A DNA stretch of 64,000 nucleotides. It comes from Devosia sp. A16. GTDB lineage: Bacteria > Pseudomonadota > Alphaproteobacteria > Rhizobiales > Devosiaceae. The translations under genes were made by a program, and so were the position numbers. This document shows positions 416-13,917 of the stretch, one piece after another. The stretch lies in the NCBI RefSeq assembly GCF_001402915.1, contig NZ_CP012945.1, positions 2,457,501-2,521,500 on the forward strand, written 5' to 3'. Numbering within the stretch: position 1 is the first letter of the stretch; every line of letters begins with the position of its first letter. Under the pieces are notes generated by a model that saw nothing but the letters and a program-made list of their open reading frames with translations, made no database searches and was not told the DNA's origin.

Positions 416-880
416 CTAGAGCGGCAGGTAGCCGGTGAAGCCGGCGATCTTCCACACGGCATTCTCCCGCCTGAGGTGGAACACCGAACGCCAGCCCAGC
501 AGCATGTCCTCCCCGGTCAGGCGCCGGATGCGGCCTTCGATGCGCTTGTGGGCCAGAGCTGCGTCGCCCTCGATATCGATCCGCGCGAGCGACTGGCATC
601 TGAACCAGGCAAGGCGCAGTGGTTCGGCGAAGTCGGCGGGGTTCCAGCGCGCCGTGATGGCGGCGTCGCGATAGGCCGCTACGGTCGAGTAGGCCGGGCG
701 CCAGTTGGCCGGCTCGAGCGACAGCCCGGCGTCGATGCCGAGAAAGCCGGTTTCGACATAGTCGGCGGCGACCAGCGACCAGTCGCTGCTGAGGAAGAAA
801 TCGCTGTCGCGCCTGACCAGCATCTCCCAGATGGCGAAGCGGTCGGCATCGTCAGGGGTGAAGGGATTGGTTTCGCTCAT
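416..880 (-). CDS. SnoaL/NTF2-like domain protein, 154 aa
   Basis: A small soluble protein with no signal peptide or membrane segment. Its pattern is that of the NTF2-like cone fold: an N-terminal helix region (DDADRFAIWEMLVRRDSDFFLSS), a hydrophobic middle, and a C-terminal strand pair (GWRSVFHLRRENAVWKIAGF). NTF2-like proteins are either small enzymes (isomerases, hydrolases) or ligand binders; nothing here fixes the reaction. Its start overlaps the stop of the upstream IclR gene by 4 nt (ATGA), so it is translationally coupled to it and is the last gene of the minus-strand locus. A role on the same substrate as the neighbouring catabolic genes is inference. Confidence 0.68.
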   Translation of the reverse strand: MSETNPFTPDDADRFAIWEMLVRRDSDFFLSSDWSLVAADYVETGFLGIDAGLSLEPANWRPAYSTVAAYRDAAITARWNPADFAEPLRLAWFRCQSLARIDIEGDAALAHKRIEGRIRRLTGEDMLLGWRSVFHLRRENAVWKIAGFTGYLPL

Positions 881-1743
881 TCCGGTTGGATGTCCGGCGG
901 CAGGGGGAAGTGGGGCTCGGGCAGGGTGCCGCCCATCGATTCCGAGATGCGGCGGGCGGCGCGGTAGAGCATGATGGCGGCATCGTCGAAGGGAACGATG
1001 ATCTGCTGGCTGGTGAGGAACGGCATGGTCAGCGCCGCGATCGAGATGCCTGAAGTGTTGATGATGGGGAAGCTGAGGTCGGTCACCCCCTGTACCATCT
1101 CGCCCTCGATCCGCTCGTAGCCGCGTCTGGCGATGGTCTCGATCCGGCCGCGGTAGCGCTTCGCCTGCGCGGCTGGCAGTAAGGCCTCGGATTGGCCGAT
1201 GATCCAGGCCTGTACCGGCGCGGGCTGGAAGGCGATGATGGTGCGCCCGGACGTGCCGCGGATGGCCGGGCTGGCGGCGCCGACGCGCAGCCGGATGGCG
1301 ATCGGCGCCGGGCTGTCGACCTGGGCGATGATGCGCTGGTTCAGCCCATCGAGCACCGCCATGTGGATGGCCTGTGACGTTTCGAGCGCCAGCGCGTTCA
1401 TCACCGGCTGCGCTGCGTCGACGACACGGCGGAACGGCGGGAACAGGGTGGCGAGCCCGTAGAGCTGCGTCGACAGCACCAGCGCTTCTTCTCCGGGCGG
1501 TCGGATCAGGTAGCCACGCCGCTCCAGCGCCATGACCATGCGATACACTTCCGACAACGAGCGGCCGAGGCGCTGGGCGATCTGGCTGGGCGTCACCGGC
1601 ACCGTCAGGGTCGCCAGGAGCTCGAGCACATCGAGGCCCTTTTCCAGCGCCGGGGCGGTATACTCCGCCTTGGGAACCGGCTTTCGGCGCTTGCGGGTGC
1701 CCTTTTCGGCCGCGGTCGGGGCGTCTTTGTCAGCTGCTGCCAT
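877..1743 (-). CDS. IclR-family transcriptional regulator, 288 aa
   Basis: After a basic lysine/arginine-rich leader of about 28 residues there is an IclR winged helix (ALEKGLDVLELLATLTVPVT, then PSQIAQRLGRSLSEVYRMVMAL) and an effector domain running to the C terminus (for example VRGTSGRTIIAFQ-like and GYERIEGEMVQGVTDLSFPI segments). IclR proteins control catabolic operons in response to a small carboxylate or sugar-derived ligand. The gene lies at the 3' end of the minus-strand locus, between the lactonase-like gene and the NTF2-like gene. A second IclR gene sits at the opposite end (12786-13577), so the locus is bracketed by two regulators of one family. Ligand unknown. Confidence 0.9.
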   Translation of the reverse strand: MAAADKDAPTAAEKGTRKRRKPVPKAEYTAPALEKGLDVLELLATLTVPVTPSQIAQRLGRSLSEVYRMVMALERRGYLIRPPGEEALVLSTQLYGLATLFPPFRRVVDAAQPVMNALALETSQAIHMAVLDGLNQRIIAQVDSPAPIAIRLRVGAASPAIRGTSGRTIIAFQPAPVQAWIIGQSEALLPAAQAKRYRGRIETIARRGYERIEGEMVQGVTDLSFPIINTSGISIAALTMPFLTSQQIIVPFDDAAIMLYRAARRISESMGGTLPEPHFPLPPDIQPE

Positions 1744-1872: not shown

Positions 1873-1952
1873 TGTCATCCCAGCGAAAGCTGGGACCCAT
1901 TTCGCCGTCCGTGCCAGCGGTGAGCTGGTTCCCAGCTTCCGCTGGGATGACA
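1873..1952. repeat. REP-like inverted repeat (GTCATCCCAGC family)
   Basis: Left arm 1873-1897 and right arm 1927-1952 are near-perfect reverse complements (TGTCATCCCAGCGAAAGCTG against CAGCTTCCGCTGGGATGACA), joined by about 30 bp. This is the GTCAT(T/C)CCCGC...GGGA type of extragenic palindrome widespread in Proteobacteria. It lies in the 270 bp between the lactonase-like gene and the IclR gene, both on minus, so it could attenuate transcription or stabilise the upstream mRNA. A one-armed relative is seen near 61411. Confidence 0.75.
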
Positions 1953-2014
1953 GCCGGTGGGTAGGTCCAAGATCAAGGCCAACCATCGGGTTGGTTGGAA
2001 GACGATGAAATCCT

Positions 2015-3058
2015 CTACTCCCAGAGCAGCAGCCAGCCTGCTCCCGGACAGTCGAACAGGTGTTCGACGCCGGTGGGAACCCCATCGGCCAGCGGCAGCG
2101 CCTTGACGGTCGAGGAGTCCCAGCCGGCGACCAGCACGTGGCTTTCGGTGGCGAGCAGGTGCTGCGGCCACTGCGCCTGGCTGTCCAGTTCGGAGACCAG
2201 CACCGGCGTGGCGCCGGACACATCGAAGGTCGAGATGGTGTCGAGGCTGCGATTGGCGAAATAGACGTGCCGACCATCCGGCGCGCGCTGGATGTCGCCC
2301 GGATAGTTGCGGCTCCAGCGGGTTTTGCCCGGACCGGATTGCCGAGTGCTGCGAATATTGGCCCAACTCGAGGCGGGCTCGCCCAACCGTCCCACAACCA
2401 GGTTCGAGCCGAGCTCACCACTGACCGCCAGGCGCCCGTCGGGCAGCACCACGGCGTGGCGCGGGCCGGTACTGGCGGGCACCGCCGTTGCCCGGACCTG
2501 GGTCAGCGCGTCGGTGCCGGGCTTGGTGAGATCGAGACTGAACTCGCGGACGAGGTCGGCGCCGAGGTCGACCACCACAAGCGTCGAGCCGATGAAGAAA
2601 GCCTGGTGCGGGTGGGCATCGTCCTGCCGCTCGAGTTCCGGACCGCCGCCGCTGAGCTTCAGCTGCACGATCGGCCCCTCGAAACTCCCGTCGGCGGCCA
2701 GCCGCTGCAGCCCGAGCGTGCTGGTGGTGTAGTTGGTGACGATCAGCAGGCGACCGCTCGGATCGACCGTGAGATGGCAGGGCTCGGCGCCCTCGCTCGA
2801 TTTCTCGCCCAGCGTTACGGCCTTGTCGGCTTCGACCCGCCAGGCGTGGATTTCGCCTTCGAGGCCGACGCGCGAGGTGCCATAGACCACCGGCAGGCTG
2901 GGATGACGGGCGAGGCTCGAGAGCTGGTTGACCCGCGCGAGCGTCTTGCCCCGCCACTTGCCATCCTGCTGCACCCAGCGGGTCAGCCCATGCAGCTCGA
3001 ACACGCCGCGCGATGCGACCAGCAGCGACTGGCCCTCGGCAAGTCTGAACTCCGACAT
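2015..3058 (-). CDS. Lactonase-family seven-bladed beta-propeller protein (6-phosphogluconolactonase-like), 347 aa
   Basis: The protein is a run of repeated blade-type segments (for example PCHLTVDPSGRLLIVTNY, AVVLPDGRLAVSGELG and IQRAPDGRHVYFANR), the pattern of the Pgl/YbhE lactonase family, which hydrolyses sugar lactones. No signal peptide is seen, so it is probably cytoplasmic. I chose ATG 3058 over the ATG at 3061 and a TTG at 3073 because a GAGGGGA Shine-Dalgarno sits at the right distance. It follows the D-threonine aldolase-like gene by about 20 bp in the same operon. With the Gfo/Idh/MocA oxidoreductase of the locus it could form a dehydrogenase-lactonase pair (inference). Confidence 0.78.
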   Translation of the reverse strand: MSEFRLAEGQSLLVASRGVFELHGLTRWVQQDGKWRGKTLARVNQLSSLARHPSLPVVYGTSRVGLEGEIHAWRVEADKAVTLGEKSSEGAEPCHLTVDPSGRLLIVTNYTTSTLGLQRLAADGSFEGPIVQLKLSGGGPELERQDDAHPHQAFFIGSTLVVVDLGADLVREFSLDLTKPGTDALTQVRATAVPASTGPRHAVVLPDGRLAVSGELGSNLVVGRLGEPASSWANIRSTRQSGPGKTRWSRNYPGDIQRAPDGRHVYFANRSLDTISTFDVSGATPVLVSELDSQAQWPQHLLATESHVLVAGWDSSTVKALPLADGVPTGVEHLFDCPGAGWLLLWE

Positions 3059-3079
3059 CATTCCCCTCGACAAGAAAAA

Positions 3080-4243
3080 CTACTCGGATGCGCCGGGGCC
3101 GAAACCGTCCCAATGCGCTACGACTTTACCGCGTTCGACCACACTTGCCCGGCGCAGCATGGCGAAGGCCATGCACACATGGTTCGGCACGATCTCGAGC
3201 CGCGTCCCTACTGGTAGCGGCTGCGGTGCGCCCTGGCCATGCCAGCGCAGCCAGCCATGTTCTTCCGACATCTTTTCGATCACCCAGCCCGGCGCGTTGA
3301 CGATCAGTCCCATGCCGGGAAATTCCTCGCGATGCGCCGAGGCTGGCACCAGATCGGTGCTCAGCGATTTCGAACCGGCATCGATACAGGCCCGCTCGGG
3401 GTCGGGATGGCTGACCACCGTGGCGATGACGCGGATGGCGGTGGTCGAGAGGCTGGCATTGCCGAGCGCGATCTGGCCGACATCGTTGAAGGCGTAGATG
3501 CCGGGCCGGATCTGCGTCACCCCCGGCACATCCGCCACTTCGCGCGCCGATGCCGAAGCGCCGAGCGAAACGATCGGCAGTGGCACGCCGCGGGCGCGGA
3601 TGGCGGTAGCGACGCCGACCATGAACGCGCCGGCCGCTCGGGCGCGGCTCGCGAGATCCGGGTGATCCTTGGCGCCATAGGTGGTGCCTTCGTGCGTATA
3701 GATGCCGACCAGCTCGACGCCGGGCACGGCGTGGATTGCCGCCGCCACCTCCGGCGCCTTATCGGCGGTGACGCCTTCGCGGCCGAGGCCGGAATCGATC
3801 GCCAGCATCATCCGCGCCGTGGCGCCGGCGGCGGCGAACACTGCGCCGATGCTGGCGGCGGCCGCCTCGCTGTCGGTGGCAAGCGTCAGGTCGACCCGCC
3901 GCGACAGGGCGAGGGCCCGTTCGGCCTTGTCCTTGCCGACGATCGGGTTGGCGACGAACAGCCGCTTCACCCCGGCCGCCGCGAAGGCTTCGGCTTCGCC
4001 GAGCTTGGCGACGCAGAGGCCATCGGCGCCATGCGCCACCTGGCGGAGGCCGATCTCGGCCATGCGATGGGTCTTGGCATGCGGGAAGAGTTCGACCCCG
4101 GCCGAGCGGGCGATCGCCGCCATCTCGTCGAGATTGCCGTCGAGCACACCCAGGTCGAGCACCAGCCCGGGAGTGGAGACCGGCAGCGCGGCCCAGCTCG
4201 GCCCCTGCGCGTCGTTGGCGATGGAAATGGCGGTGGCGGGCAT
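3080..4243 (-). CDS. D-threonine aldolase / D-serine dehydratase-like (DSD1) PLP enzyme, 387 aa
   Basis: This is an alanine-racemase-type fold III PLP enzyme. The PLP lysine is in FPHAKTHR near residue 54; barrel motifs such as GIYTHEG and IRPGIYAFNDVG follow. The C-terminal domain carries the metal-site segments SEEHGW and PNHVCMAF, whose His and Cys residues bind zinc in D-serine dehydratase and its relatives. The family splits or dehydrates beta-hydroxy-D-amino acids (D-threonine, D-serine, 3-hydroxy-D-aspartate). The stop of the upstream deacylase gene is two bases away, so the two are co-translated: a deacylase that frees a D-amino acid, followed by a lyase acting on it, is a sensible pair. 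Exact substrate unknown. Confidence 0.85.
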   Translation of the reverse strand: MPATAISIANDAQGPSWAALPVSTPGLVLDLGVLDGNLDEMAAIARSAGVELFPHAKTHRMAEIGLRQVAHGADGLCVAKLGEAEAFAAAGVKRLFVANPIVGKDKAERALALSRRVDLTLATDSEAAAASIGAVFAAAGATARMMLAIDSGLGREGVTADKAPEVAAAIHAVPGVELVGIYTHEGTTYGAKDHPDLASRARAAGAFMVGVATAIRARGVPLPIVSLGASASAREVADVPGVTQIRPGIYAFNDVGQIALGNASLSTTAIRVIATVVSHPDPERACIDAGSKSLSTDLVPASAHREEFPGMGLIVNAPGWVIEKMSEEHGWLRWHGQGAPQPLPVGTRLEIVPNHVCMAFAMLRRASVVERGKVVAHWDGFGPGASE

Positions 4244-4245
4244 GC

Positions 4246-5844
4246 TCAGGCTCCCAGCGTCAGCGCCCGGCCGGCGCGATGGCCGGTGACGCGGTTGTTC
4301 TCGACGGCGAACTGGCCGTTGACCAGCACATGCACGATGCCGGTGGCGGCCTGCCGCGGGTTCTCATAGGTGGCGTTGGCCTTGACGTTGGCGGCATCGA
4401 AGACGACGAGGTCCGCCTTGGCCCCGGCGGCGATGCGGCCGCGGTCGGTCAGCCGTAGCCGGTCGGCGGCCGAGCTGGTCATGTGCCGCACGCACTCCTC
4501 GAGCGTCAGCACCTTTTCTTCGCGCACATAGGTTTCGAGCATGCGCGGGAAGGTGCCCCAGGAGCGCGGATGCGGCCGGTCGCCGACCAGGATGCCGTCG
4601 CTGCCCACGGTATGCTCGTCGCGCTGCATCAGGGTGCGGACATGCTCCTCGATGCCGATGAAGAACACGCACGGAGCCGCGCGCTCGGTGGCGATCAGCA
4701 CGTCGAGCGCCAGTTCGGCCGGCGAGGTGTTGAGCTTCCGCGCCGCCTCGGCGAGGTTGCCCTCCATCATCCATTCCATCTCGGGCGCCCCGGGCAGGCC
4801 CGCGAGATAGACGCTCGACCAGTTGACGGTGAGGCCCTGATGCCCGTCGGAGCCGGTGACGTCGAGCGCCTCGATGATGCGCTTGCGCGTCTCCGGATCC
4901 TTGAGCCGCGCCATCTGCTCGTCGCCGGTGCCGGAGAGCGCCCAACTCGGCAGCTGCGACAAGAGCGTGGTCATGCCGGCGAGATAGGGATAGGCGTCGA
5001 AGCTCAGGTCGACGCCGTCGGCGATGGCGTCGTCGAACATCTTGAGCAGTTGCGGGAGCTTGCCCTTGTTGGCCTCGAAGCTCAGGTGGGTATGCGCCAG
5101 GTGCAACGCCACGCCCGAGCGGCGGGCGATCTCGAAGCACTCGCCATAGCCGCCCAGCGCATCGGTGCCGTAGTTGCGGTGGTGCGGGCAGTAGAAGCCG
5201 CCATATTCGGCCACCACTTCGCACAGCGCCACCAGCTCGTCGGTGTCCGAATACATCGCCGGCACATAGGTGAGCCCGGTCGAGAGCCCGACGCCGCCTT
5301 CCTCGAGCGCAGTGCGGAGCAGCGCCTTCATCTGCTCGAGCTCGTCCGGGGTGGCGAGCCGCGCTGCGTTGCCCATCACCAGCATCCTGAGGTTGCCATG
5401 CGGCACCAGGTAGGCGCAGTTGACCGCGACATTGCCGTCGAGCCGCTTCAGATACTCGCCGACGCTGCGCCAGTTCCAGTCGAAGCCCGGCGGATCGTCG
5501 TTCCAGCCCTTGATCTGGCTGCGCATCTCGATCAGCGTCGCATCGTCGATCGGCGCATAGCTGAGGCCATCCTGGCCGAGCACTTCGGTAGTGACGCCCT
5601 GGCTGAGTTTTGAGGTGTGGTCGGGGTTCACCAGCACTTGCAGGTCGGAATGGGTGTGCATGTCGATGAAGCCCGGCGCGATATAGAGGCCATCGATTGC
5701 CACGGTGCGGTCCGCCCTGGGGCGCCGCGCTCCCTTGTAGATGCCGGCGATGCGGTCGCCGATCACCAGCACGTCGGCTGGAACAGGCGCGTTGCCGAGG
5801 CCGTCGACGACGAGGCCGCCGGTAAACAGGGTGGAGGTGCTCAT
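4246..5844 (-). CDS. N-acyl-D-amino-acid deacylase-like amidohydrolase, 532 aa
   Basis: The sequence begins with the small beta domain of amidohydrolases (LFTGGLVVDGLGNAPVPADV), then metal site I in GFIDMHTHSDLQ, the histidine segments PHHRNYG and HLAHTHLS, the family-typical DAYPYLAGMTTL, and a late SDGILVGDRPHPRSWG. This order and length match D-aminoacylases, which cleave N-acyl-D-amino acids. One thing is odd: where classical members have a VGNCG motif whose Cys bridges the metal, this protein has LGQDG, so it belongs to a variant subgroup. ATG 5844 is chosen because it overlaps the stop of the upstream oxidoreductase by 4 nt; a longer reading in the same frame lacks homology before this point. 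Confidence 0.82.
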   Translation of the reverse strand: MSTSTLFTGGLVVDGLGNAPVPADVLVIGDRIAGIYKGARRPRADRTVAIDGLYIAPGFIDMHTHSDLQVLVNPDHTSKLSQGVTTEVLGQDGLSYAPIDDATLIEMRSQIKGWNDDPPGFDWNWRSVGEYLKRLDGNVAVNCAYLVPHGNLRMLVMGNAARLATPDELEQMKALLRTALEEGGVGLSTGLTYVPAMYSDTDELVALCEVVAEYGGFYCPHHRNYGTDALGGYGECFEIARRSGVALHLAHTHLSFEANKGKLPQLLKMFDDAIADGVDLSFDAYPYLAGMTTLLSQLPSWALSGTGDEQMARLKDPETRKRIIEALDVTGSDGHQGLTVNWSSVYLAGLPGAPEMEWMMEGNLAEAARKLNTSPAELALDVLIATERAAPCVFFIGIEEHVRTLMQRDEHTVGSDGILVGDRPHPRSWGTFPRMLETYVREEKVLTLEECVRHMTSSAADRLRLTDRGRIAAGAKADLVVFDAANVKANATYENPRQAATGIVHVLVNGQFAVENNRVTGHRAGRALTLGA

Positions 5845-6890
5845 AGGTCTTCGACTTGCAGTTTCTGGTTGGTCTTGGCGCTGAGATAGATGGCGTCGGT
5901 GACGGCGACGACATGCGCCGCGAGGCGCGCGGTGAGCCCGGCCGGCGCCGCGGCGCCGAACGCGCAGGCAATCAGCGCCTTGGTCGGAGCGCCCGGATCG
6001 TAGACACCCGAGGCCTCCGGCGCCTGGTATTCGACCACCTCGCCGCTGGCGCGCACGAGGCGCAGCGTGTCGGCCACCGAGTCGGCCCAGAGCTGGCCCT
6101 TGTCGCCATAGAGCGCCATGTGCCACTGGGGGCGGGCGAGGTAGGGGTGGGTCGAGGCGGCGCTGATCGCTGCCGAACCGCCACCGGCGAACTCGGCATT
6201 GACAGTGGTGTGGAGGTCGATGTCGCTTCGGGGCGGAAAGGTGCTGGCGTTGAGCGCGACGATCGGCTCGCCCACCAGCCATTCGACCATGCCGAGCTCG
6301 TGCGACATGGTCACCGCTGCCGAGCCGCCGCCCGAGATGGCCTTGTCGGTATAGGTCGCGGTGCTCGATTCGAGCTTGCCGCCCCAACCGCCGTCGGTGC
6401 TGCCCGAGAGCAGCGCCCGGGTGTTGACCGCCAGGTGCATGGTCAGGTGCTCGATCCTACCGATCTCGCCGGCCTCGATCAGGCTGCGGCTCAGGGCGAA
6501 GATCGGCGCCGCCGGCCAGCCGAAGCCGACCAGCAGCACCTTCTTCACCCGCTCCGCGGTATCGCGCATCCGGCGGGCAGCACCGGCGCTGAGAGCGAAG
6601 GGCTTTTCGACGAGGACATGCGCGCCGGCTTCCAGCGCCGCGATCACCTGTTCCTCGTGTGCGACCGGCGGGCTCGAGACCACGACGATATCGGGGTTGA
6701 GCGCCAGGGCGTCGCGCCAGTCGGCAAAGTGCCGGGTCTCGAACTGCCGGCCAAGCATGGCTGCCATCTCGGCGTTGGGGCTCGAGATCGCCACGAGGTC
6801 GACGCGGCTGTCGGCCCTGAGCGCCGGCAGGTGGCTCGATTGCGACCAGGCGCCGGCGCTGAGCACGACGGCCTTGATGGTGGAGCTCAT
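5841..6890 (-). CDS. Gfo/Idh/MocA-family NAD(P)-dependent oxidoreductase, 349 aa
   Basis: The N-terminal Rossmann domain shows KAVVLSAGAWSQSSHLPAL, with a less glycine-rich dinucleotide loop than usual, then DIVVVSSPPVAHEEQV and the family hallmark ALEAGAHVLVEKPFAL, where the EKP lysine lies near the catalytic site. The C-terminal alpha/beta domain follows (ISGGGSAAVTMSHELGMVEW). The family oxidises or reduces sugars, inositols and related polyols. The gene overlaps the permease upstream and the deacylase downstream by 4 nt each, so it is deep within one operon. The substrate is probably the imported compound or a product of it (inference). Confidence 0.86.
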   Translation of the reverse strand: MSSTIKAVVLSAGAWSQSSHLPALRADSRVDLVAISSPNAEMAAMLGRQFETRHFADWRDALALNPDIVVVSSPPVAHEEQVIAALEAGAHVLVEKPFALSAGAARRMRDTAERVKKVLLVGFGWPAAPIFALSRSLIEAGEIGRIEHLTMHLAVNTRALLSGSTDGGWGGKLESSTATYTDKAISGGGSAAVTMSHELGMVEWLVGEPIVALNASTFPPRSDIDLHTTVNAEFAGGGSAAISAASTHPYLARPQWHMALYGDKGQLWADSVADTLRLVRASGEVVEYQAPEASGVYDPGAPTKALIACAFGAAAPAGLTARLAAHVVAVTDAIYLSAKTNQKLQVEDL

Positions 6891-7771
6891 TTGCCCACCC
6901 CGGCGGTCAGCGCGCCGACGACGTGGCGCTGGAAGATCAGGACCAGCACGGTGGGCGGCAGCATCGACATCACGGTCGCCGCGGCGAGCGCGTTCCAGTT
7001 GAACTGCTGCACCGACTGGAAGCCGGCGAGCAGCGGCGGCACGGTCAGCTGGTTGGTGAGGACGAGGGCGTAGAAGAACTCGCTCCAGGCTTCGAGGAAG
7101 ATCAATACGCCTGCCGCCACGAGGCCCGGCCGGGCGATCGGCACGATGATGATCCATAGCGTCTGCAACCGCGTCGCGCCGTCGATCTTGGCGGCTTCCT
7201 CGATCTCGCGCGGCAGCTGATCGAAGTAGTTCTTGAGGATCATGATGGCGAGCGGCAGCGTGAAGACGTTGTAGCTGATCACCAGCGCCCAGGGCGTGTT
7301 GAGCACGCCGATGACCCGGAAGGCGACGAAGAACGGCCCGATGATGGCGATCGCCGGCACGATCCGGGTGGCGATCACCGACAATTCGAAGGCGCGCGCG
7401 CCGCGGAACGGATAGCGCGACAACCCGTAGGCGGCGGCGCCGGCAATGAAAAGGTTCAGCACCACCAGCACCGAGCTGACGAGCAGGCTCTGGCCGACTG
7501 CCGGCACGAGGCGCGTACCCATATCGGTGCTGCCGATGCCCTTGCCGCCGGTATTGCCGAACAGCACTGCCGCATAGTTGTCGAGCGTCATGCTCGAAGG
7601 CACCAGCGGGAAGGGTTTGACGCCCAGTTGCGACGGGGTGATCAGGCTGGAGACCACGAGGTACCAGACCGGCAGCAGGATCCAGATAGCGAAGACCAGG
7701 ACGCCCAGATAGATGGCGATGCTGGTGGCGGGGCTGCGGCGCCGGCCGCGCTCGAAGGCGGAGGAGGCCAT
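6887..7771 (-). CDS. CUT1-type ABC sugar permease (MalG-like), 294 aa
   Basis: An inner-membrane permease with about six hydrophobic helices. It opens with a short basic N terminus and a first helix near residues 18-40, and carries the binding-protein-dependent transport signature EEAAKIDGATRLQTLWIIIVPIARPGL, the coupling loop that contacts the ATPase. The size and the single preserved EAA loop are typical of MalG-like subunits. It overlaps the MalF-like gene by 1 nt and the downstream oxidoreductase by 4 nt. No ATPase gene is present anywhere in this operon, so a shared MsmX/UgpC-type ATPase elsewhere must energise the importer. Confidence 0.9.
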   Translation of the reverse strand: MASSAFERGRRRSPATSIAIYLGVLVFAIWILLPVWYLVVSSLITPSQLGVKPFPLVPSSMTLDNYAAVLFGNTGGKGIGSTDMGTRLVPAVGQSLLVSSVLVVLNLFIAGAAAYGLSRYPFRGARAFELSVIATRIVPAIAIIGPFFVAFRVIGVLNTPWALVISYNVFTLPLAIMILKNYFDQLPREIEEAAKIDGATRLQTLWIIIVPIARPGLVAAGVLIFLEAWSEFFYALVLTNQLTVPPLLAGFQSVQQFNWNALAAATVMSMLPPTVLVLIFQRHVVGALTAGVGK

Positions 7772-8673
7772 CAGTGCATCTCCCTGCGATAGAACAGCCG
7801 GACGATGGTCAGCCCGCCGATCAGCGCCACGACGCCGAGGATGACGGCAAGCGCCGAGCCGAGCCCGATATTGGTGTTGACGAACAGCTGCCGGTAGATG
7901 AGCACGCTCAATACCTGCGTGGTGTCGCCCGGCCCGCCCTGCGTCATGGCGAAGACCACGTCGAACTGCAGGAAGGCGTAGATCACGTTGAACACCGTGA
8001 CGGTGATCAGCACCGGCCGGAGCCAGGGGAGCGTGATGTTGGAAAAGCGCTGCCACCAGTTGGCGCCGTCGAGCTGCGCTGCCTCGTTCAGCTCCTCGGG
8101 AAGGGTCTGCAGGCCAGCCAGCAGCAGGATGCCGGCAAAGCTCGCCTGTCGCCAGACCGCGGCGATGACGGTGATCGGCAGCGCGGTGTTGGGGTCGGAC
8201 AGGAACGGGTGATAGTCGTTGGTGAGGCCGAGCATCATCAGCACGGCGTTGAGCCCGCCAACGCTGCCATCGGCAAACCACTTCCACAGGATGCCGATCA
8301 CCAGCCAGGGCGTCGCCCACGGAATGATCAGCAGCGCGCGAGCGAGGCCGCGGCCGATGAAGCGCTGGTTGAGCAGCATCGCCATGGCCAGCCCGATCAC
8401 CGTCGAGAGGATGACGAAGCCGACCGAGAAGGTGAGCGTCACCTGGGCCGAGCGCCAGAACACCGGGCTCGAGAAGATGATGGTGAAGTTCTCGATGCCG
8501 ACGAACGGTCCGAAGCTCGAGCCGCTCGCCGGTACGTCGTGCAGGCTGTAGACGATGGTGAGCAGCGTCGGCAGGGCCAGCAGCACGATCAGGATGATCA
8601 TGGCCGGGGCCACGAGCTTCAGTCCGAATGCGCGATCGGCCTTCGGCCCGAGTAAGTCAGTTGCTCCCGCCAT
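7771..8673 (-). CDS. CUT1-type ABC sugar permease (MalF-like), 300 aa
   Basis: A six-helix permease of the MalF type; its EAA coupling loop is LPEELNEAAQLDGANWWQRFSNITLPWLRP. The N terminus (KADRAFGLKLVAPAMIILIV) leads straight into the first membrane helix. I place the start at ATG 8673, which has GGGAGAG just upstream, rather than the TTG four codons earlier. It stands next to the MalG-like gene and about 290 bp downstream of the binding-protein gene, from which it is separated by an inverted-repeat element (8779-8932). Confidence 0.9.
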   Translation of the reverse strand: MAGATDLLGPKADRAFGLKLVAPAMIILIVLLALPTLLTIVYSLHDVPASGSSFGPFVGIENFTIIFSSPVFWRSAQVTLTFSVGFVILSTVIGLAMAMLLNQRFIGRGLARALLIIPWATPWLVIGILWKWFADGSVGGLNAVLMMLGLTNDYHPFLSDPNTALPITVIAAVWRQASFAGILLLAGLQTLPEELNEAAQLDGANWWQRFSNITLPWLRPVLITVTVFNVIYAFLQFDVVFAMTQGGPGDTTQVLSVLIYRQLFVNTNIGLGSALAVILGVVALIGGLTIVRLFYRREMH

Positions 8674-8778
8674 GTGCTCTCCCAAATGCTAACGAGTTGG
8701 CCGTCCCTGGCCGGCATCCGACGCGCTGAAACCCTCCCCCTTGGGGGAAGGCAGCAGGCGCCAGCGATAGATCGAGGG

Positions 8779-8932
8779 CCTTCTCCCCTTGTGGGAGAAG
8801 GTGCCCGAAGGGCGGATGAGGGGTATCTCTCCGCGTACTCCAGTCGCTCGTCGCTTCGCTCCGATCGCGCTACACTTCGTCGCGCGACCCCTCATCCGGC
8901 GCTGCGCGCCACCTTCTCCCACAAGGGGAGAA
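8779..8932. repeat. Inverted-repeat intergenic element with perfect 25-bp arms
   Basis: The arms 8779-8803 and 8908-8932 are perfect reverse complements built around CTTCTCCCCTTGTGGGAGAA, itself partly self-complementary, and each is followed by a GGATGAGGGG or CCCCTCATCC segment. The element separates the binding-protein gene (stop at 8960) from the permease genes of the same operon. In RNA it would fold into a long stem able to protect the upstream binding-protein mRNA or reduce read-through. It belongs to a wider set of such elements in this window. Confidence 0.8.
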
Positions 8933-8959
8933 GGCAAGAGGCGCGTGTTGCCGGTCAGA

Positions 8960-10285
8960 TCAGAGCGTCCGGCCGCCCTGGGCGCCCTTGGCGGCGGCGG
9001 TCAGGTCCTCGACGGTCTTCTGCGCCGTCGCCTGGCCGAGCAGCAGGGCGTGGATGATGTCGCCGACCTTGGCCTGGAAATCCGGGTACCAGGGCAGGGT
9101 GCGGGCCGGCACGACATTCGACTTGCTGGCGAACGTGTCAGACAGCATCGCCAGGTCATAATAGTCGGGGAACGAGGCGATCACTTCGGGGTCGGTGAAG
9201 AACCCGGCATAGGGGGCGGCGAGGCCGGCAGCCTTGGCCCACTGGTTGAACACCTTGAACTTCCCTTCGGTGTCCTTCCAGCCGTAATACTTCATCAGCT
9301 CCCAGGTCGCGAGCCGCTCCTCCTCGCTGTCGGAGACGCCCATCTGCAGCACCTCGCCGATCTGCAGCGTCGACGGGCCGGCGGCGGCCGACTTGACGTT
9401 GGCCGATTGCGGCCCCTCGAGCGAGCGGATCGAGGTCAGGAAGTAGTGGTGCAGCACGTAGAAGGCGGCGTTGCCCTGCGCCATCTCGTTGCTCAGCTTG
9501 CCCGGGTCGTCGGTCAGCAGCGACTTCGGCGCGAGGCCTTCCTGGTACATCGCCTGCCACCACTCGAATACCCCGACGGTCTTGGGATCGTCGGCGAACA
9601 CCGGCTGGCCGGCATCGTCGAAGGCGGTGATCTGCTCGTTGAGCAGGTAGGTGTGGAGGTATTCCTCGCAGAATTCCTTCACCCAATAGGCGACGTAGGG
9701 CGAGGCGACTGTCGACTGCAGCGACTTCGAGGCGTCGTAGATTTCCTTCAGCGTCGTCGGCACGGCGAGGCCGGCATCGGCGAGGAACTTCTCGTTGTAG
9801 TGCAGCATGTGCACGGCCGAGAAATACGGGGCGCTGATGATATCGCCATTGGCGTTGACGTGGCGCCCGCGGGCGCTTTCGAACATGTCGGCGATCATGT
9901 CGTCGACGCCGGGCAGGCCGTTGAGCGTCTTGGCCCAGCCCTCATTGACGAACTTCTGCGAGTTGTAGGCGAAGTTGTAGTAGAGGTCGATCTTGTCGCC
10001 GCCGCGCAGGCGGGTCTGCAGCGCCGGGGTGTAACCGAGGTTCGGGATCACCGCGACATTGACCGCCGGGTTGCCCGCCGCGGTCCACTCGCCGACCAGC
10101 GACTTGATGGTGTCGGGCTGGAAGTCCCAGGCCAGCATGTCGAGCGTGCCCGTATACGCTGCCTTGGCGGTGCCGGCCATGAGGCCGGGCACGAAGGCAG
10201 CGGCCAGCGCCGATGCGCCGCCGGCCTTGAGGAAGGAGCGACGGTTCAGCGAACCGAAGCCCCGGGTGGCGTTAGAGATCGTCAT
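8960..10285 (-). CDS. ABC sugar-type extracellular solute-binding protein, Tat-exported, 441 aa
   Basis: The N terminus carries a twin-arginine signal (LNRRSFLKAGGASALAAAF) ending near GTAKA-AY, so the protein is exported folded to the periplasm. The mature part has the type-I carbohydrate binding-protein look: TLDMLAWDFQPDTIKSLVGE, a MLHYNEKFL segment, WELMKYYGW, and a length near 410 residues. It would deliver the substrate to the two permeases downstream. ATG 10285 is preceded by GGAGGGAAAG, an excellent ribosome-binding site; a longer in-frame reading from 10351 has no signal-peptide character. Export by Tat rather than Sec is uncommon for this family but known in alphaproteobacteria. Confidence 0.9.
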   Translation of the reverse strand: MTISNATRGFGSLNRRSFLKAGGASALAAAFVPGLMAGTAKAAYTGTLDMLAWDFQPDTIKSLVGEWTAAGNPAVNVAVIPNLGYTPALQTRLRGGDKIDLYYNFAYNSQKFVNEGWAKTLNGLPGVDDMIADMFESARGRHVNANGDIISAPYFSAVHMLHYNEKFLADAGLAVPTTLKEIYDASKSLQSTVASPYVAYWVKEFCEEYLHTYLLNEQITAFDDAGQPVFADDPKTVGVFEWWQAMYQEGLAPKSLLTDDPGKLSNEMAQGNAAFYVLHHYFLTSIRSLEGPQSANVKSAAAGPSTLQIGEVLQMGVSDSEEERLATWELMKYYGWKDTEGKFKVFNQWAKAAGLAAPYAGFFTDPEVIASFPDYYDLAMLSDTFASKSNVVPARTLPWYPDFQAKVGDIIHALLLGQATAQKTVEDLTAAAKGAQGGRTL

Positions 10286-10365
10286 AGCTTTCCCTCCTTG
10301 ACGAACTGAATCGACGAGGCGTCGCGAACGACGCCGCTTTCCTGCAACCAAGGCTGCAGGCCTTT

Positions 10366-10389
10366 CCCGGTCCGGCCCAACGGACCGGG
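10366..10389. other. Perfect 9-bp stem-loop in the leader of the binding-protein operon
   Basis: CCCGGTCCG (10366-10374) and CGGACCGGG (10381-10389) are perfectly complementary with a six-base loop. No U-run follows on either strand, so it is not a standard terminator. It lies about 80 bp upstream of the minus-strand binding-protein gene and could be a leader structure. Confidence 0.5.
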
Positions 10390-10509
10390 CATTTTCGACA
10401 TTCTCAGCCGAGCCCTTCAGCCCAGCCGATCGGTAGCGAGGCGCTTCCCCGTGTCTCGCCGCCTGTCGTCAGATCGCAACGTTATGACGGCTGCAATCAT
10501 ATATCAATA

Positions 10510-10533
10510 CGACTTTTCGCATATGAAAAGTCG
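10510..10533. promoter_or_regulatory. Perfect inverted repeat, candidate operator between aminotransferase and ABC operon
   Basis: CGACTTTTC (10510-10518) and GAAAAGTCG (10525-10533) are perfect reverse complements around a GCATAT centre. The site starts five bases after the aminotransferase stop and is followed on minus by AT-rich DNA with TATTGATATATGAT, promoter-like in an otherwise GC-rich context. An operator for one of the IclR proteins at the promoter of the binding-protein/permease operon is the simplest reading. A weak terminator of the aminotransferase gene is the alternative. Confidence 0.5.
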
Positions 10534-10537
10534 AGGC

Positions 10538-11827
10538 CTAGCGCAGGTTTTTCATAACGATTTCAGCGGTTTCGAGCGTCCGATCGATATCGGCATCGGT
10601 ATGCGCGGCGCTGATGTGGTTGCGCTTGATCGGCATGGGCAGCATGAAGATGCCGCGCTCGCACATGCCCTGGCGGAACGCCAGGTCACGCGCCGTGTCG
10701 TTGGCGAGCAGGTCCTCGTAGCGCTCGATCTTGCCGCTCATGAAATAGGGGGTGAACACCGAGCCGAAGCCGGCCGACACCATCTCGATGCCGAGGCGGC
10801 CGGCGATTTCGGCGAGGCCCGCGCGCATCCGGTCTCCCAGCCGGAAGGTGCGCTCGTAAATGCTGCCGTCCTCGAGCGCGGCGATGGTGGCGAGCGCCGC
10901 GGCAGACCCGACCGGGTGGCCGTTATAGGTGCCGCCAACGAACACCTTGCCGCCCGGCGCGGTGGAGAACTGCTGCATCAGTTCGCGCTTGCCCGCGATG
11001 ATGGCGCAGGGGTAGCCGTTGGCGATGGCCTTGGCGAAGGTGCTGATATCGGGCTTGACCCCGAGCACCGACTGATAGCCGCCGAGCCCGTGGCGGAAGC
11101 CGGTGATCACCTCGTCGAACACCAGCACGATGCCGTGCTGGTCGCAGAGCCGGCGCAGCCCTTCGACGAAATCCTGCCGCGGCAGCACGCAGCCGATATT
11201 GTGCGGGATCGCTTCCATGAAGATGGCGGCGATCTGGCCCGGGTGCTCGAGGATCGCCTGCTCGGTGGCCGCCAGGTCGTTGAACGGCACGATGATGGTG
11301 TTGTCGATCGCGTCGGCGAGCTGGCCGGCGCTGCCCGGATCTTTCTTGCCGATCTTGTCGGCCGGGCTGGCGATGTTCATCAAGAGGTAGTCGTGCCAGC
11401 CGTGGAAGGTGCCCTGGAACTTGATCAGCTTCTCGCGCCCGGTGACGCCGCGTGCCAGCCGCACCGCCATGTAGGTGGCCTCGGAGCCCGAAGAGAAGGC
11501 GAGCGCCAGCTCGGCCGACGGCACGTGCTCCACCACCTTTTCGGCGAGCATGATCTCCTGCTCGGTGATGCCGACGCCGACCATGTCCGGACCCGCCAGC
11601 GCCTTGGCGACCGCCGCATTCACCGCAGGGTCGTTATGGCCCAGGACGATCGGGCCGAAGGCGGCGTGGTAGTCGAGATAGGTATTGCCGTCGACGTCGC
11701 GGATATAGGCGCCCTCGGCCCATTCCCAGGCATAGGGCTGGCTCAGCCGCCGCGTCGCGGAGTTGACGCCGCCGGGAATGACCCTGGTGGCGCGTTCGGT
11801 GAGGCTCTTGGATTTTTCGATATGCAT
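10538..11827 (-). CDS. Class III PLP aminotransferase, glutamate-1-semialdehyde aminomutase-like, 429 aa
   Basis: The protein starts TERATRVIPGGVNSATRR, the signature opening of glutamate-1-semialdehyde 2,1-aminomutase relatives. FSSGSEATYMAVRLAR, FQGTFHGWHDY, VLVFDEVITGFR and the PLP-lysine segment FAKAIANGYP follow in the normal order. True HemL is a housekeeping enzyme, but placement in a catabolic cluster beside an amidohydrolase and an IclR regulator suggests a transaminase or racemase for an amino compound. Such HemL-like paralogues are common in catabolic loci. A good Shine-Dalgarno is not visible before ATG 11827. A gap of about 74 bp separates it from the amidohydrolase gene upstream in transcription. 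Confidence 0.85.
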   Translation of the reverse strand: MHIEKSKSLTERATRVIPGGVNSATRRLSQPYAWEWAEGAYIRDVDGNTYLDYHAAFGPIVLGHNDPAVNAAVAKALAGPDMVGVGITEQEIMLAEKVVEHVPSAELALAFSSGSEATYMAVRLARGVTGREKLIKFQGTFHGWHDYLLMNIASPADKIGKKDPGSAGQLADAIDNTIIVPFNDLAATEQAILEHPGQIAAIFMEAIPHNIGCVLPRQDFVEGLRRLCDQHGIVLVFDEVITGFRHGLGGYQSVLGVKPDISTFAKAIANGYPCAIIAGKRELMQQFSTAPGGKVFVGGTYNGHPVGSAAALATIAALEDGSIYERTFRLGDRMRAGLAEIAGRLGIEMVSAGFGSVFTPYFMSGKIERYEDLLANDTARDLAFRQGMCERGIFMLPMPIKRNHISAAHTDADIDRTLETAEIVMKNLR

Positions 11828-11901
11828 CAGGAGACCAGAACTCGGGAGGGCTTTCAGGAAAGGCTTCGCCTTTCCGGTGCGAAAGCTGACAAAACAATGG
11901 T

Positions 11902-12789
11902 TTAGGAAAGGCCGAGCAGCGTGAGGCTGTCCCGGTGGATGATCTGCTCGATCTTGTCGGCGGGGACGCGCGGCAGCGCCGTGCCCTCGACGATGGCGTT
12001 GACGGTGCGCAGCGCGGTGAGCGTCTCGGCCGGGGTGGTGATCGGGTAGTCCGAAGCGAACAGCAGTTTGTCGAGCACGTTCCACTCGGTGGCTTTGATC
12101 ATTCCCTCGTAGAAGGTGTAGGGCCGGTAGAGCAGGCCCGAGACGTCGGCATAGACGTTGGGGTGCTTGCGGATCACCACCGCGGTATCGACCGTCCAGG
12201 GGTGGCCCATATGGGCCATGATGATCTTGAGGTTGGGGTAGCGCATGGCGATCTCGTCGACCACCAGCGGGTGGGCATACTTGATCGGCGCGGTGCGGAC
12301 CGGCGAAGTGCCGATGTGGAACAGGATCGGCAGCCCGTGCCGCTCGGCCTCGCGGTAGATCGCCAGCGCCCGGCTCTCCAGCGGCTCGAACACCTGGTAA
12401 TTGGCGCCCATCTTGATGCCCTTGAGGCCGAGGTCGGTGCGCGAACGCTCGATCTCCTCGAGCGCCTTGGGGTCGTGCGGGTGCACCGACATGAAGCCGA
12501 TCAGCCGGTCGGGATGCGCCAGCGCGAAGGCCGACGTGGCGTCGTTGACGCCCACCGCCACATCGCCGGGCTCGTTGAAGCCGTTGACCCCGCCGGTGCG
12601 CTCCCCCGGCGCCCAGGCGACGCCGAAGACGATCGACTTGTCTGCCGGCTGCTGCGCCTCGAGGAAATCGTTCCAGCTGTAGACGGAATCGACCGAGCGG
12701 TCGGGCCGCCAGGTGTGGTGCAGGCGCCGGTGTTCCGGCGGCACGGCATGGCGGAACTGCGGGGTATGCGAGTGGACGTCTATGATCAT
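11902..12789 (-). CDS. Amidohydrolase-2 family metal-dependent hydrolase, 295 aa
   Basis: The sequence begins MIIDVHSHTPQ (metal-binding HxH) and later shows ILFHIG, IIMAHMGHPW and LLFASDYP, the remaining metal and catalytic segments of the PF04909 TIM-barrel family (decarboxylases, lactonases and amide or C-C hydrolases). Residues 25-110 hold a family-typical insertion. Its start overlaps the stop of the IclR gene by 4 nt, so regulator and enzyme are translated together. The reaction cannot be assigned; lactone or decarboxylation chemistry is as likely as amide hydrolysis. Confidence 0.82.
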   Translation of the reverse strand: MIIDVHSHTPQFRHAVPPEHRRLHHTWRPDRSVDSVYSWNDFLEAQQPADKSIVFGVAWAPGERTGGVNGFNEPGDVAVGVNDATSAFALAHPDRLIGFMSVHPHDPKALEEIERSRTDLGLKGIKMGANYQVFEPLESRALAIYREAERHGLPILFHIGTSPVRTAPIKYAHPLVVDEIAMRYPNLKIIMAHMGHPWTVDTAVVIRKHPNVYADVSGLLYRPYTFYEGMIKATEWNVLDKLLFASDYPITTPAETLTALRTVNAIVEGTALPRVPADKIEQIIHRDSLTLLGLS

Positions 12790-13577
12790 GGAGTGGTGAC
12801 CTTTTGGGGAGCGCCGAGTTCTTGCGAGATGGCCCGGGCGCAGGCTTCGACGGCCTTGGCGAGGTCGCCGAGGCCATCCTGGGTGACGCGGGTGGTGGGG
12901 CCGGAAATGCTGACGGCGGCAACGACGGCGCCGGAATGGTCGCGGATCGGCGCCGCGACGCAGCGCAGCCCCTGCTCGATTTCCTCGTCGTCGATGGCAT
13001 AGCCGCGCGCCCGGATCTCGGCGATCTGTTCGGCGAGACGCGCCGGATCGGTGATGGTGTGCGGCGTATGCGGCTCGAAACGCATGCGCGCCATCAGCTG
13101 CTGGCGCACAGGCTCGTCCTGGAAGGCCAGCAGCGCCTTGCCGACGCCGCTGCAATGCAGAGGGTCTAGGAAGCCGACAAAGCTCGCCATCCGCATCGAA
13201 CGCGAGGCGTCGAGCTTGTCGATGCAGAGCGCATTGTCCTCGCTGAGGATGGACAGGTGCACCGTCTCGCCCGTTTCGGCGACGAGGCTCTCGAGATGCG
13301 GACGCGCCGAGCGGCGGAGATCGAGCTCGCCCATCGCTCGCGCGCCGATCACCAGCGACAGCATGCCCAGCCGATAGGTCTGGCTCTGCTCGTCGCGATC
13401 CAGCATTCGCCGCGCCGTCAGCGTCGCGAGAATCCGGAACACCGTGCTCTTGGGCAGCCCGGTATCGGTGACGATGCCGTCCACCGTCAGCACGCCGTTC
13501 TTCGCCGCCACCGCGGAGAGAATATCGATCGCCCGATCCACCGACCGAATGGCGTAACGATCTTCGCTAGAATTCAC
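12786..13577 (-). CDS. IclR-family transcriptional regulator, 263 aa
   Basis: The protein has a winged helix near residues 10-70 (YAIRSVDRAIDILSAVAA, then TVDGIVTDTGLPKSTVFRILATL) and a full effector domain with SMRMASFVGFLDPLHCSGVGKALLAF and GYAIDDEEIEQGLRCVAAPI. This is the KdgR-like branch that senses small organic acids. The start is GTG 13577; an in-frame stop lies just upstream and no Shine-Dalgarno is visible. The start codon sits inside an inverted repeat (13573-13605), which suggests autoregulation. It is the promoter-proximal gene of the amidohydrolase/aminotransferase unit. Confidence 0.9.
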   Translation of the reverse strand: MNSSEDRYAIRSVDRAIDILSAVAAKNGVLTVDGIVTDTGLPKSTVFRILATLTARRMLDRDEQSQTYRLGMLSLVIGARAMGELDLRRSARPHLESLVAETGETVHLSILSEDNALCIDKLDASRSMRMASFVGFLDPLHCSGVGKALLAFQDEPVRQQLMARMRFEPHTPHTITDPARLAEQIAEIRARGYAIDDEEIEQGLRCVAAPIRDHSGAVVAAVSISGPTTRVTQDGLGDLAKAVEACARAISQELGAPQKVTTP

Positions 13578-13605
13578 TAGATGAACTCACAGTTTGAATA
13601 GTGAA
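13573..13605. promoter_or_regulatory. Inverted repeat over the IclR start codon, candidate auto-operator
   Basis: TTCACTA (13573-13579) and TAGTGAA (13599-13605) are reverse complements separated by 19 bp. The left half covers the GTG start of the IclR gene. A widely spaced repeat at its own start fits negative autoregulation; binding is not shown. Confidence 0.45.
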
Positions 13606-13842
13606 CTATCACACACCGGAATCGATCCTGACGTCAAGCCACGCCGCAGATGACCGCCTCGGGACGGGCTGGCGGGCGCGGCAAAAGAGGAGGACTGAGG
13701 GGCAAACCGATGGGGGCGGCAGCCGAGTAACCGGCGGCTCTGGCCGGCCTTGCGCCAGCAGCAGGTCTTCCGCGGGCGAGGTTGAGCCGGCCATACGCGA
13801 AGCGTACGAGGGCAAAGGCGTCGCGGAGCTCTTAGAAGGAAC

Positions 13843-13917
<75 letters not shown>

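Follow-up and report, generated by a model that had tools for sequence, protein, structure and literature searches.

The window analysed here, a 64,000-nucleotide stretch of the genome of the soil bacterium Devosia sp. A16 (contig NZ_CP012945.1, positions 2,457,501 to 2,521,500), contains a cluster of genes at positions 416-13577, all on the minus strand, that we propose with a probability of about 0.6 to encode the non-phosphorylating, oxidative catabolism of an N-acyl-2-amino sugar. The enzymes central to this proposal are NDAD, a D-aminoacylase-like deacylase, and DTA, a pyridoxal 5′-phosphate (PLP) enzyme; they are accompanied by a Gfo/Idh/MocA oxidoreductase (Gfo), a propeller lactonase, components of an importer, the amidohydrolase AHY, the class III aminotransferase AT3, and two IclR-family regulators (IclR1 and IclR2). 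D-Glucosaminate, a 2-amino-aldonate with the 2R configuration and a hydroxyl group on the beta carbon, counts among the sugar acids and equally among the beta-hydroxy D-amino acids. Signs of sugar oxidation and of D-amino-acid chemistry in one gene set are therefore compatible with a single substrate class, the N-acyl-2-amino aldoses. A sequence-only reading of this DNA had suggested a sugar-linked or N-acylated D-amino acid as the substrate. The N-acylation, the D-amino-acid character and the sugar part are retained in our proposal, but a link between a sugar and a D-amino acid is unnecessary: an N-acyl-2-amino sugar suffices, as the corresponding aldonic acid already has the structure of a D-amino acid.

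The route, proposed from the genes alone, would begin with import of the sugar by the binding protein and two permeases, which by homology would be served by an ATPase encoded elsewhere. Judging from its co-occurrence pattern, the Gfo enzyme would oxidize C1 to give a lactone, and the propeller lactonase, as a member of its family, would open this lactone to an N-acyl-2-amino-2-deoxyaldonate, chemically an N-acyl D-amino acid. NDAD, as its family and context suggest, would then remove the acyl group using a bound metal and Asp416 as the base, a mechanism modelled on that of the Ong-pathway deacetylase OngB. From its residues and context, DTA is predicted to eliminate the beta-hydroxyl group with the aid of a His/Cys-bound metal, freeing ammonia and yielding a 2-keto-3-deoxyaldonate, which would be 2-keto-3-deoxygluconate (KDG) if the sugar is N-acetylglucosamine (GlcNAc). 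A KDG-kinase-like protein and a 2-keto-3-deoxy-6-phosphogluconate (KDPG) aldolase encoded elsewhere would complete the breakdown. GlcNAc is the best studied candidate sugar; N-acetylgalactosamine and quinovosamine-type sugars are possible, as is an L-rhamnosamine-type sugar for the version of the cluster found in Anaerolineae.

If this proposal is correct, oxidative amino-sugar breakdown without prior phosphorylation would occur also in Alphaproteobacteria, Actinomycetota and Chloroflexota, using a deacylase from a different lineage, to which the Alphaproteobacteria would add a sugar-oxidizing front end of their own; a complete pathway of this type has been described so far almost only from Gammaproteobacteria (PMC9537276). 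A substrate class could then be assigned to proteins annotated as "D-aminoacylase" and "alanine racemase" (as in locus L115; L and G numbers denote related loci and genomes), and the role of the strongly conserved AHY-AT3 pair would be the sharply defined puzzle that remains.

The proposed deacylase NDAD and the PLP enzyme DTA

NDAD keeps the HxH motif (residues 63 and 65), Tyr193, His221, His251, Tyr285, Asp416 and Arg427. Relative to OngB, Cys97 is replaced by Asp92, Glu226 by Tyr225, Lys254 by His253, and Ser290-292 by Gly290-Met291-Thr292; the key residue Gln298 of OngB lies beyond the aligned part of NDAD. In OngB, Lys254 is described as helping to hold the alpha-carboxylate, Glu226 as binding the C4 hydroxyl, and Ser290-292 as contacting the substrate (PMC12017989). 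The site characteristic of D-aminoacylase (metal-binding Cys, His and His, with a carboxylate-binding Lys) is likewise absent from NDAD, in which Asp92, His221, His251 and His253 are found. The Asp in place of Cys is carried by most rows of neighbouring groups and is not specific to the NDAD clade; the Tyr in place of Glu occurs in every row of the clade and only once outside it, in L151, and the Lys position is occupied within the clade by His, Thr, Gln or Asn. In an IQ-TREE phylogeny of 72 rows kept after removal of near-identical ones, drawn from the midpoint, NDAD falls in a clade of 30 rows (support 100/97) apart from the group of OngB and D-aminoacylase (100/100); the OngB row, which is long and in two parts, groups with D-aminoacylase and not with NDAD.

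NDAD thus lies outside the OngB/AfDam group, with the residues equivalent to Cys97, Glu226, Lys254 and Ser290-291 changed, and the proposed deacylase function would hence have arisen independently. Direct membership in the Ong pathway, our first idea from the match to PpOngB, was dropped on the evidence of the residues and the tree. The sequence-only reading had called NDAD N-acyl-D-amino-acid deacylase-like, and the family match stands, but the residues and the tree are not those of an ordinary D-aminoacylase; ordinary N-acyl-D-amino-acid degradation was abandoned as the best reading after these observations and the actinobacterial neighbourhoods described below.

In DTA the PLP-binding Lys is kept, and Gly stands where the D-threonine aldolase AxDTA has its base, His193. 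An H-x-C metal motif (His and Cys) is present in all 38 rows recovered by tblastn (28 alphaproteobacterial, 9 from Chloroflexota, 1 archaeal), several of which are the same gene fetched twice; in the actinobacterial row from L115 the text pattern for the motif is unmatched, yet the alignment shows His-Pro-Cys. Chicken D-serine dehydratase is described as using His and Cys without the His193 of D-threonine aldolase (PMC4401734). DTA is of this zinc D-serine-dehydratase type in its PLP Lys, its His and Cys metal ligands and the lack of a His193-type base, and it has neither the His and Asp ligands nor the base of the D-threonine aldolases. Given a His/Cys metal site and Gly at the His193 position, DTA should be a dehydratase-type enzyme that eliminates rather than cleaves. 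An identity as D-threonine aldolase was rejected on these two features, so that of the earlier label "D-threonine aldolase/D-serine dehydratase-like" only the dehydratase half is borne out. The best solved relatives of DTA are D-threo-3-hydroxyaspartate dehydratase, D-threonine aldolase and D-serine dehydratase.

Conserved neighbourhoods

Homologues of DTA lie within 6 kb of NDAD at 20 of 28 clade loci and 1 of 27 outgroup loci, and homologues of Gfo at 19 of 28 and 1 of 27, respectively. These counts were drawn from 35 clade and 57 outgroup loci by keeping those with a full 6 kb on both sides; the loci, which do not include L178, are related and hence non-independent. A scan of genome contigs provided 79 loci of relatives. 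The neighbourhood search that the sequence-only reading had recommended as a check was positive: Devosia (L031, L032, L033, L041, L044), Kaistia (L034, L035, L038, L039, L040, with AHY-AT3 adjoining only in L039) and a Rhodobacteraceae bacterium (L037) all retain the cluster, and a diverged form occurs in Anaerolineae. IclR2 is kept in L031-L033, L036, L037, L041, L043, L044 and L173, and the small protein encoded at the end of the cluster in L032, L033 and L044.

The type of importer varies among these loci, and Gfo varies with it. A CUT1-like importer is accompanied by Gfo in 12 of 12 alphaproteobacterial loci (the window, L031-L035, L037-L041 and L044), whereas at the three loci with an Rbs-type importer (L036, L043 and L173) four Gfo queries at E 1e-3 found no match within the locus. 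The Rbs-type binding proteins are 86-93% identical to one another, with PF13407 in L036 and L173, and these three loci retain NDAD, DTA, the lactonase and IclR2; the propeller lactonase and DTA are present in all 15 alphaproteobacterial loci counted. The count leaves out L153 and L172 (from one genome), the short loci L001-L011, and L144, which agrees in that a CUT1-like importer, Gfo and the lactonase are all present. Because Gfo tracks the CUT1-like importer and is missing with the Rbs-type, the simplest reading is that the former would take in an aldose that needs oxidation and the latter an already oxidized form. At L173 (4169-5471), in a sibling Devosia, genes for a RidA-like protein (30%) and a fumarylacetoacetate (FAA) hydrolase flank the NDAD module. 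The FAA-hydrolase family is used for 2,4-diketo-3-deoxy sugar acids.

The importer proteins of the window have few specific matches. For the binding protein, Pfam yields only a twin-arginine (TAT) signal match just under the cut-off (21.7 versus 22.7 bits) and NCBIfam a weak match to NgcE (24.6 bits), and its AlphaFold2 model, with a predicted local distance difference test (pLDDT) score of 53.5, is too poor to use. The best NCBIfam matches of the permeases fall under their cut-offs (UgpA for permease 1, 125.2 versus 335 bits; GlcU and MalG for permease 2). No ABC ATPase is encoded among the cluster genes; TOBE_2 (PF08402) has 25 matches elsewhere in the genome.

The diverged cluster occupies eight Anaerolineae/Chloroflexota loci (L049, L050, L051, L053-L056 and L058), where identity to the window proteins is 70-73% for AHY, 66-68% for AT3, 46-48% for NDAD, 44-46% for the binding protein and 35-38% for DTA, so that AHY and AT3 are the window proteins with the strongest conservation in Anaerolineae. 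All eight also hold permeases, a phosphotriesterase (PTE)-family protein and an RhmD-type dehydratase; family models were run on L051, where the RhmD-type enzyme scores 526.7 bits against a cut-off of 393. The PTE-family proteins of these loci and of L057, and an SMP-30/SGL protein (PF08450) in L059, stand near NDAD and belong to families that include lactonases, the PTE-family protein of L051 scoring far under the lactonase equivalog (121.8 versus 630 bits).

Neighbourhoods in Actinomycetota bear on the later steps. In the Ong pathway, OngB deacetylates the oxidized chitin sugar N-acetylglucosaminic acid (GlcNAc1A), OngC deaminates the product to KDG and KdgK phosphorylates it, so that KDG and then KDPG follow the deamination of D-glucosaminate (PMC9537276). 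Four of the nine actinobacterial NDAD-clade loci (L042, L045, L046, L047, L048, L060, L063, L115, L178) carry a PfkB kinase of KDG/KDGal type, a KDPG aldolase, RidA and an IclR regulator beside NDAD, namely L046 and L048 (Streptomycetaceae), L115 (Tsukamurella) and L178 (Arthrobacter), with NDAD identities of 48-51%. L115 and L178 further hold a GntP permease and a D-ser_dehydrat-family PLP enzyme (PF14031 in L115; the L178 protein is 51% identical to that of L115). The aldolase of L115 exceeds the eda subfamily cut-off (169.4 versus 156 bits); the kinase-like proteins lie under the equivalog cut-offs (140.7 versus 440 bits in L115, 162.8 versus 400 in L046), and "KDG kinase" is our best guess at their identity. 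By analogy, these kinase, aldolase and NDAD sets appear to follow the gene logic of GlcNAc1A catabolism. Among the other five loci, L042, L047 (which starts at a contig end) and L060 have none of these genes, L045 has RidA only, and L063 a dehydratase relative only. Kinase-like and aldolase genes are found elsewhere in the Devosia genome. We count in favour of the proposed route these genes, the four actinobacterial neighbourhoods, the pairing of Gfo with the CUT1-like importer beside a constant lactonase and DTA, the lactonase-containing families near NDAD, the dehydratase-type residues of DTA and the enrichment of DTA and Gfo homologues around clade members.

Contrary evidence and alternative readings

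Several observations weigh against catabolism of an N-acyl-2-amino sugar. Chief among them is the lack in NDAD of the carboxylate-binding Lys (OngB 254), together with that of the C4-hydroxyl-binding Glu (OngB 226) and the substrate-contacting Ser290-292; the substrate pose must therefore differ, or a free aldonate may go unbound. AT3 and AHY have no assigned step in the proposed route, none of the specific dehydrogenase equivalogs of NCBIfam fits the Gfo protein, and the L-rhamnonate-dehydratase-type enzyme of the Anaerolineae version would be superfluous for D-glucosamine. Two nagA-family matches over cut-off in the genome indicate that plain GlcNAc may be handled elsewhere; the nagB model TIGR00502 has no match in the genome, a search that did not extend to SIS-type deaminases. 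With respect to the later steps, kinase, aldolase and RidA are all absent among the Devosia cluster genes, the KdgK-like protein of the genome, at 264 bits, falls short of the cut-off of 400, kinase and aldolase are not near NDAD in 5 of the 9 actinobacterial loci, and RidA is non-diagnostic, being a neighbour at 5 of the 28 clade loci but also at 6 of the 27 from the outgroup.

The first alternative, which we regard as unlikely, is closer to the sequence-only reading: an N-acyl D-amino acid would come attached to a sugar or along with one, the freed D-serine- or D-threonine-like acid being dehydrated and the sugar oxidized apart by Gfo and the lactonase. The family names fit, and the best solved relatives of DTA act on D-threo-3-hydroxyaspartate, D-threonine and D-serine. 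However, NDAD is without the substrate residues of D-aminoacylase, no glycosidase is encoded among the cluster genes, and the KDG-kinase-like and KDPG-aldolase genes beside NDAD in four actinobacterial loci would be needless for free D-serine.

Other alternatives turn on AHY and AT3. AT3 exceeds the cut-off of NF000818 (401.3 versus 398 bits), and an identity as the haem-biosynthesis enzyme HemL was rejected on its score against the hemL equivalog (385.2 versus 527.3 bits). The AlphaFold2 model of AHY (pLDDT 71.1) is usable, not decisive, the best Foldseek match being 3irs, followed by TruffO and several decarboxylases. AHY is rare: at E 1e-60 it occurs in 5 of 397 genomes of the order, this one included, and among 398 genomes of the phylum a search at E 1e-40 found it in this genome only. 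IclR1 precedes AHY also in L031, L033, L039 and L044, three Kaistia genomes (L148-L150) have IclR1-AHY-AT3 at a site of its own, and AHY-AT3 lies on the opposite strand in L037 and L041. AHY is found without AT3 nearby in L171; at E 1e-60, genome G516 has AHY and no NDAD match, and four NDAD-bearing genomes (G797, G801, G802 and G089) have no AHY match. AHY-AT3, often with IclR1, is an attached, separable module.

The neighbours of the module in L148 and L149 are an Rbs-type importer, an RhmD-like enzyme, a short-chain dehydrogenase/reductase (SDR) and a protein weakly resembling acyl-homoserine-lactone (AHL) lactonases (in L148, 279 bits under a cut-off of 393 for the RhmD-like enzyme; 20.3 versus 375 bits for the AHL-lactonase-like protein); none of these neighbours is present within the 20 kb of L150. 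A GatZ/KbaZ-like gene adjoins the module in L041 (D. rhodophyticola), and the gene of a glycoside hydrolase family 3 protein in L037. To judge from these gene contents, the common theme of the AHY-AT3 surroundings is probably sugar-acid metabolism.

For a diamino or otherwise N-substituted sugar, AHY (by amide or lactam hydrolysis) and AT3 (by amine/aldehyde transamination) might take a second nitrogen before the oxidative route. Their conservation between the window and Anaerolineae, well above the 44-48% of the binding protein and NDAD, and their position upstream of the importer genes would accord with such a role, but the four NDAD-bearing genomes without an AHY match and the separate site of IclR1-AHY-AT3 in Kaistia speak against it, and we consider it decidedly improbable.

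More doubtful still is the idea that AHY and AT3 process 2-keto-3-deoxyaldonates in a lower branch of a kind not yet described, one that needs no kinase, set beside two upper arms that would make such acids, the deacylase and PLP deaminase from an amino sugar and the RhmD-type dehydratase from a plain sugar. Both arms are held by the eight Anaerolineae/Chloroflexota clusters. RhmD acts on L-manno acids, and since D-specific enzymes need a 2R amino acid, the L-manno series would fit both arms. Under this speculative scheme the Anaerolineae substrate would be an N-acyl-L-rhamnosamine, for which we know of no catabolic pathway.

More distant relatives of the module occur in other settings. AT3 relatives (45-48%) on Shinella, Pararhizobium and Agrobacterium plasmids (L111, L112 and L113) are glutamate-1-semialdehyde (GSA)-aminomutase-like proteins of a different, conserved and annotated cluster, which also encodes a split transketolase, another aminotransferase, an amidase, an SDR, a GntR regulator and an ABC importer of its own; it gave no clue to the role of AT3. 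An unannotated Azospirillum plasmid (L164, AT3 relative 50%) looks similar by eye. The Devosia genome of the window itself carries, at L166 (C1:983000-1002900), an AHY paralogue (33%) together with an IclR gene and one that is RhmD-like (38%), near which an IlvD/Edd-like gene and an Rbs-type importer were noted by eye. In L151 (genome G803, shared with L042), relatives of AT3 (50%), AHY (31%) and NDAD (35%) lie within about 9 kb, and an FAA hydrolase there is closest to 2,4-didehydro-3-deoxy-L-rhamnonate hydrolase (206 bits versus a cut-off of 500).

It is least probable that NDAD cuts an N-carbamoyl group, which would make a ureido or carbamoyl compound the substrate of the cluster, in the manner of UacY, proposed to cut the 2-ureido group in dpaL/ygeY-type sets of reductive uric acid breakdown (PMC12507026): many rows at 36-42% identity are closer to NDAD than OngB is in the midpoint-drawn tree and share the Asp replacing the metal-binding Cys, one of them (L116) adjoining dpaL and ygeY, but neither gene is among those of the cluster, and L116 and most Asp-bearing rows of its group (exceptions, outside the NDAD clade, being L065, L066, L099 and L103) keep the Glu and Lys that NDAD-clade rows never have. 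In L116 itself (Rhodovastum atsumiense plasmid, 6545-10593), dpaL and the genes of a YgeY-family hydrolase and an NDAD relative (38%) follow one another; an alphaproteobacterium thus carries a gene set of the type to which the final steps of reductive uric acid breakdown have tentatively been ascribed (PMC12507026).

Gene layout and comparison with known systems

The cluster for which we propose a role in the catabolism of an N-acyl-2-amino sugar lies in a 5.03-Mb genome assembled as a single contig, and the closest named relatives of its NDAD are from Devosia. Open reading frame coordinates and family matches confirm a single minus-strand cluster with the enzyme and importer families named in the sequence-only reading (Table 1, in gene order from 13577 down). 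That reading placed an IclR regulator at each end; both genes exist, but IclR2 lies outside the interval 2015-13577 given there, as does the gene it called NTF2-like, for which Pfam matched no family and the label is unconfirmed.

Table 1. Genes of the Devosia sp. A16 cluster, with window positions and family matches.
Feature	Position	Strand	Description
IclR1	12786..13577	-	IclR-family regulator heading the IclR1-AHY-AT3 unit; PF01614 190.6 bits
AHY	11902..12789	-	Amidohydro_2 protein; PF04909 124.8 bits
AT3	10538..11827	-	Class III aminotransferase, GSA-aminomutase subfamily; PF00202 205.4 bits
Solute-binding protein	8960..10285	-	TAT-like signal
Importer permease 1	7771..8673	-	PF00528 (BPD_transp_1) 77 bits
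Importer permease 2	6887..7771	-	PF00528 (BPD_transp_1) 63.9 bits; overlaps permease 1
Gfo/Idh/MocA dehydrogenase	5841..6890	-	PF01408 80 bits; proposed aldose 1-dehydrogenase
NDAD	4246..5844	-	Amidohydro_3/D-aminoacylase-like; PF07969 124.7 bits; proposed N-acyl-2-aminoaldonate deacylase
DTA	3080..4243	-	Ala_racemase_N PF01168 101.9 bits and D-ser_dehydrat PF14031 92.2 bits; proposed 2-amino-2-deoxyaldonate deaminase
Lactonase, seven-bladed propeller	2015..3058	-	PF10282 164.8 bits (cut-off 21.7)
IclR2	877..1743	-	Second IclR regulator, downstream of the lactonase; PF01614 56.5 bits, PF09339 46.5 bits
Small protein	416..880	-	Overlaps IclR2; no Pfam family matched

Five neighbouring pairs overlap by 1-4 bases (IclR1/AHY, permease 1/permease 2, permease 2/Gfo, Gfo/NDAD and IclR2/small gene), and NDAD and DTA are 2 bases apart; these start/stop overlaps, the 2-base gap, and recurrence in other genera and another phylum argue that the cluster is more than chance. 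GC content is even along the region (0.64-0.68). An island at tRNA genes was rejected, since no tRNA gene adjoins the cluster in any of nine related loci scanned, the single tRNA-Ser of L041 lying more than 4 kb off. In the window, ARAGORN called a tRNA-Pro (agg) at 13059-13150, within the IclR1 reading frame and probably false, and further tRNAs at 13843-13917 and 14081-14157. The intergenic regions 8674-8959 and 1744-2014 contain, by eye, long inverted repeats of the interspersed-palindromic-element kind. A candidate operator, a TTGAC box with an imperfect TGAA...TTCA palindrome, was noted by eye at 13578-13650, just before the IclR1 start codon, and at the same position in L031, L033, L039, L044 and L148-L150. 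The idea that IclR1 and the binding-protein gene are preceded by a common operator was rejected, as the palindromes at the binding protein are conserved only in the nearest relatives, and a site pattern derived from the Kaistia IclR1 genes has no match in the window, its own IclR1 gene included (0.37 expected by chance).

As the sequence-only reading had anticipated, no described pathway has exactly this gene set among the open-licence PubMed Central matches listed, which is weak evidence of absence. Nor did we find the case that the sequence-only reading had named as refuting it, a relative of the cluster whose known substrate has nothing to do with D-amino acids; OngB/OngC, nearest in function, act on a 2-amino sugar acid. 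Among single enzymes, D-aminoacylase (1m7j) and N-acyl-D-glutamate deacylase (3gip) share the amidohydrolase fold family with NDAD, and 1m7j also the HxH motif, two further His, two Tyr, the catalytic Asp and the Arg; the Cys ligand, Lys and Glu of D-aminoacylase are Asp, His and Tyr in NDAD, which belongs to a separate clade. Zinc D-serine dehydratase (3anu) and D-threo-3-hydroxyaspartate dehydratase (3wqc) resemble DTA in the PLP-lysine motif, the His/Cys metal ligands and the lack of an aldolase base, but they are distant (140.7 and 157.2 bits, respectively) and the setting of DTA is one of sugar oxidation. The oxidative L-rhamnose pathway consists of rhamnose dehydrogenase, a lactonase and L-rhamnonate dehydratase. 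The proposed route would similarly run through a dehydrogenase, a lactonase and a step to a 2-keto-3-deoxyaldonate, with an RhmD-type enzyme present in the Anaerolineae clusters, whereas in Devosia a deacylase and a PLP deaminase would replace the enolase-superfamily dehydratase.

Haloarchaea have a different proposed route through glucosaminate (PMC12343721). The Ong pathway of Pseudoalteromonas prydzensis ACAM 620 is the nearest counterpart, in that a D-aminoacylase-like deacylase and then a fold-type III PLP deaminase yield KDG and ammonia before phosphorylation (PMC9537276, PMC12017989); in complete form it is reported from Gammaproteobacteria and one betaproteobacterium (PMC9537276). DTA, which is of the fold family described for OngC and has dehydratase-type residues, may be a deaminase of OngC type. 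In Devosia, however, the sugar is apparently oxidized inside the cell by Gfo and the lactonase, ABC permeases take the place of the SSS-family importer OngIT, NDAD belongs to another clade with changed active-site residues, and the cluster lacks KdgK and RidA (ongD) but has AT3-AHY in addition. By this comparison, the Devosia cluster is predicted to work like the Ong route without being a member of it.

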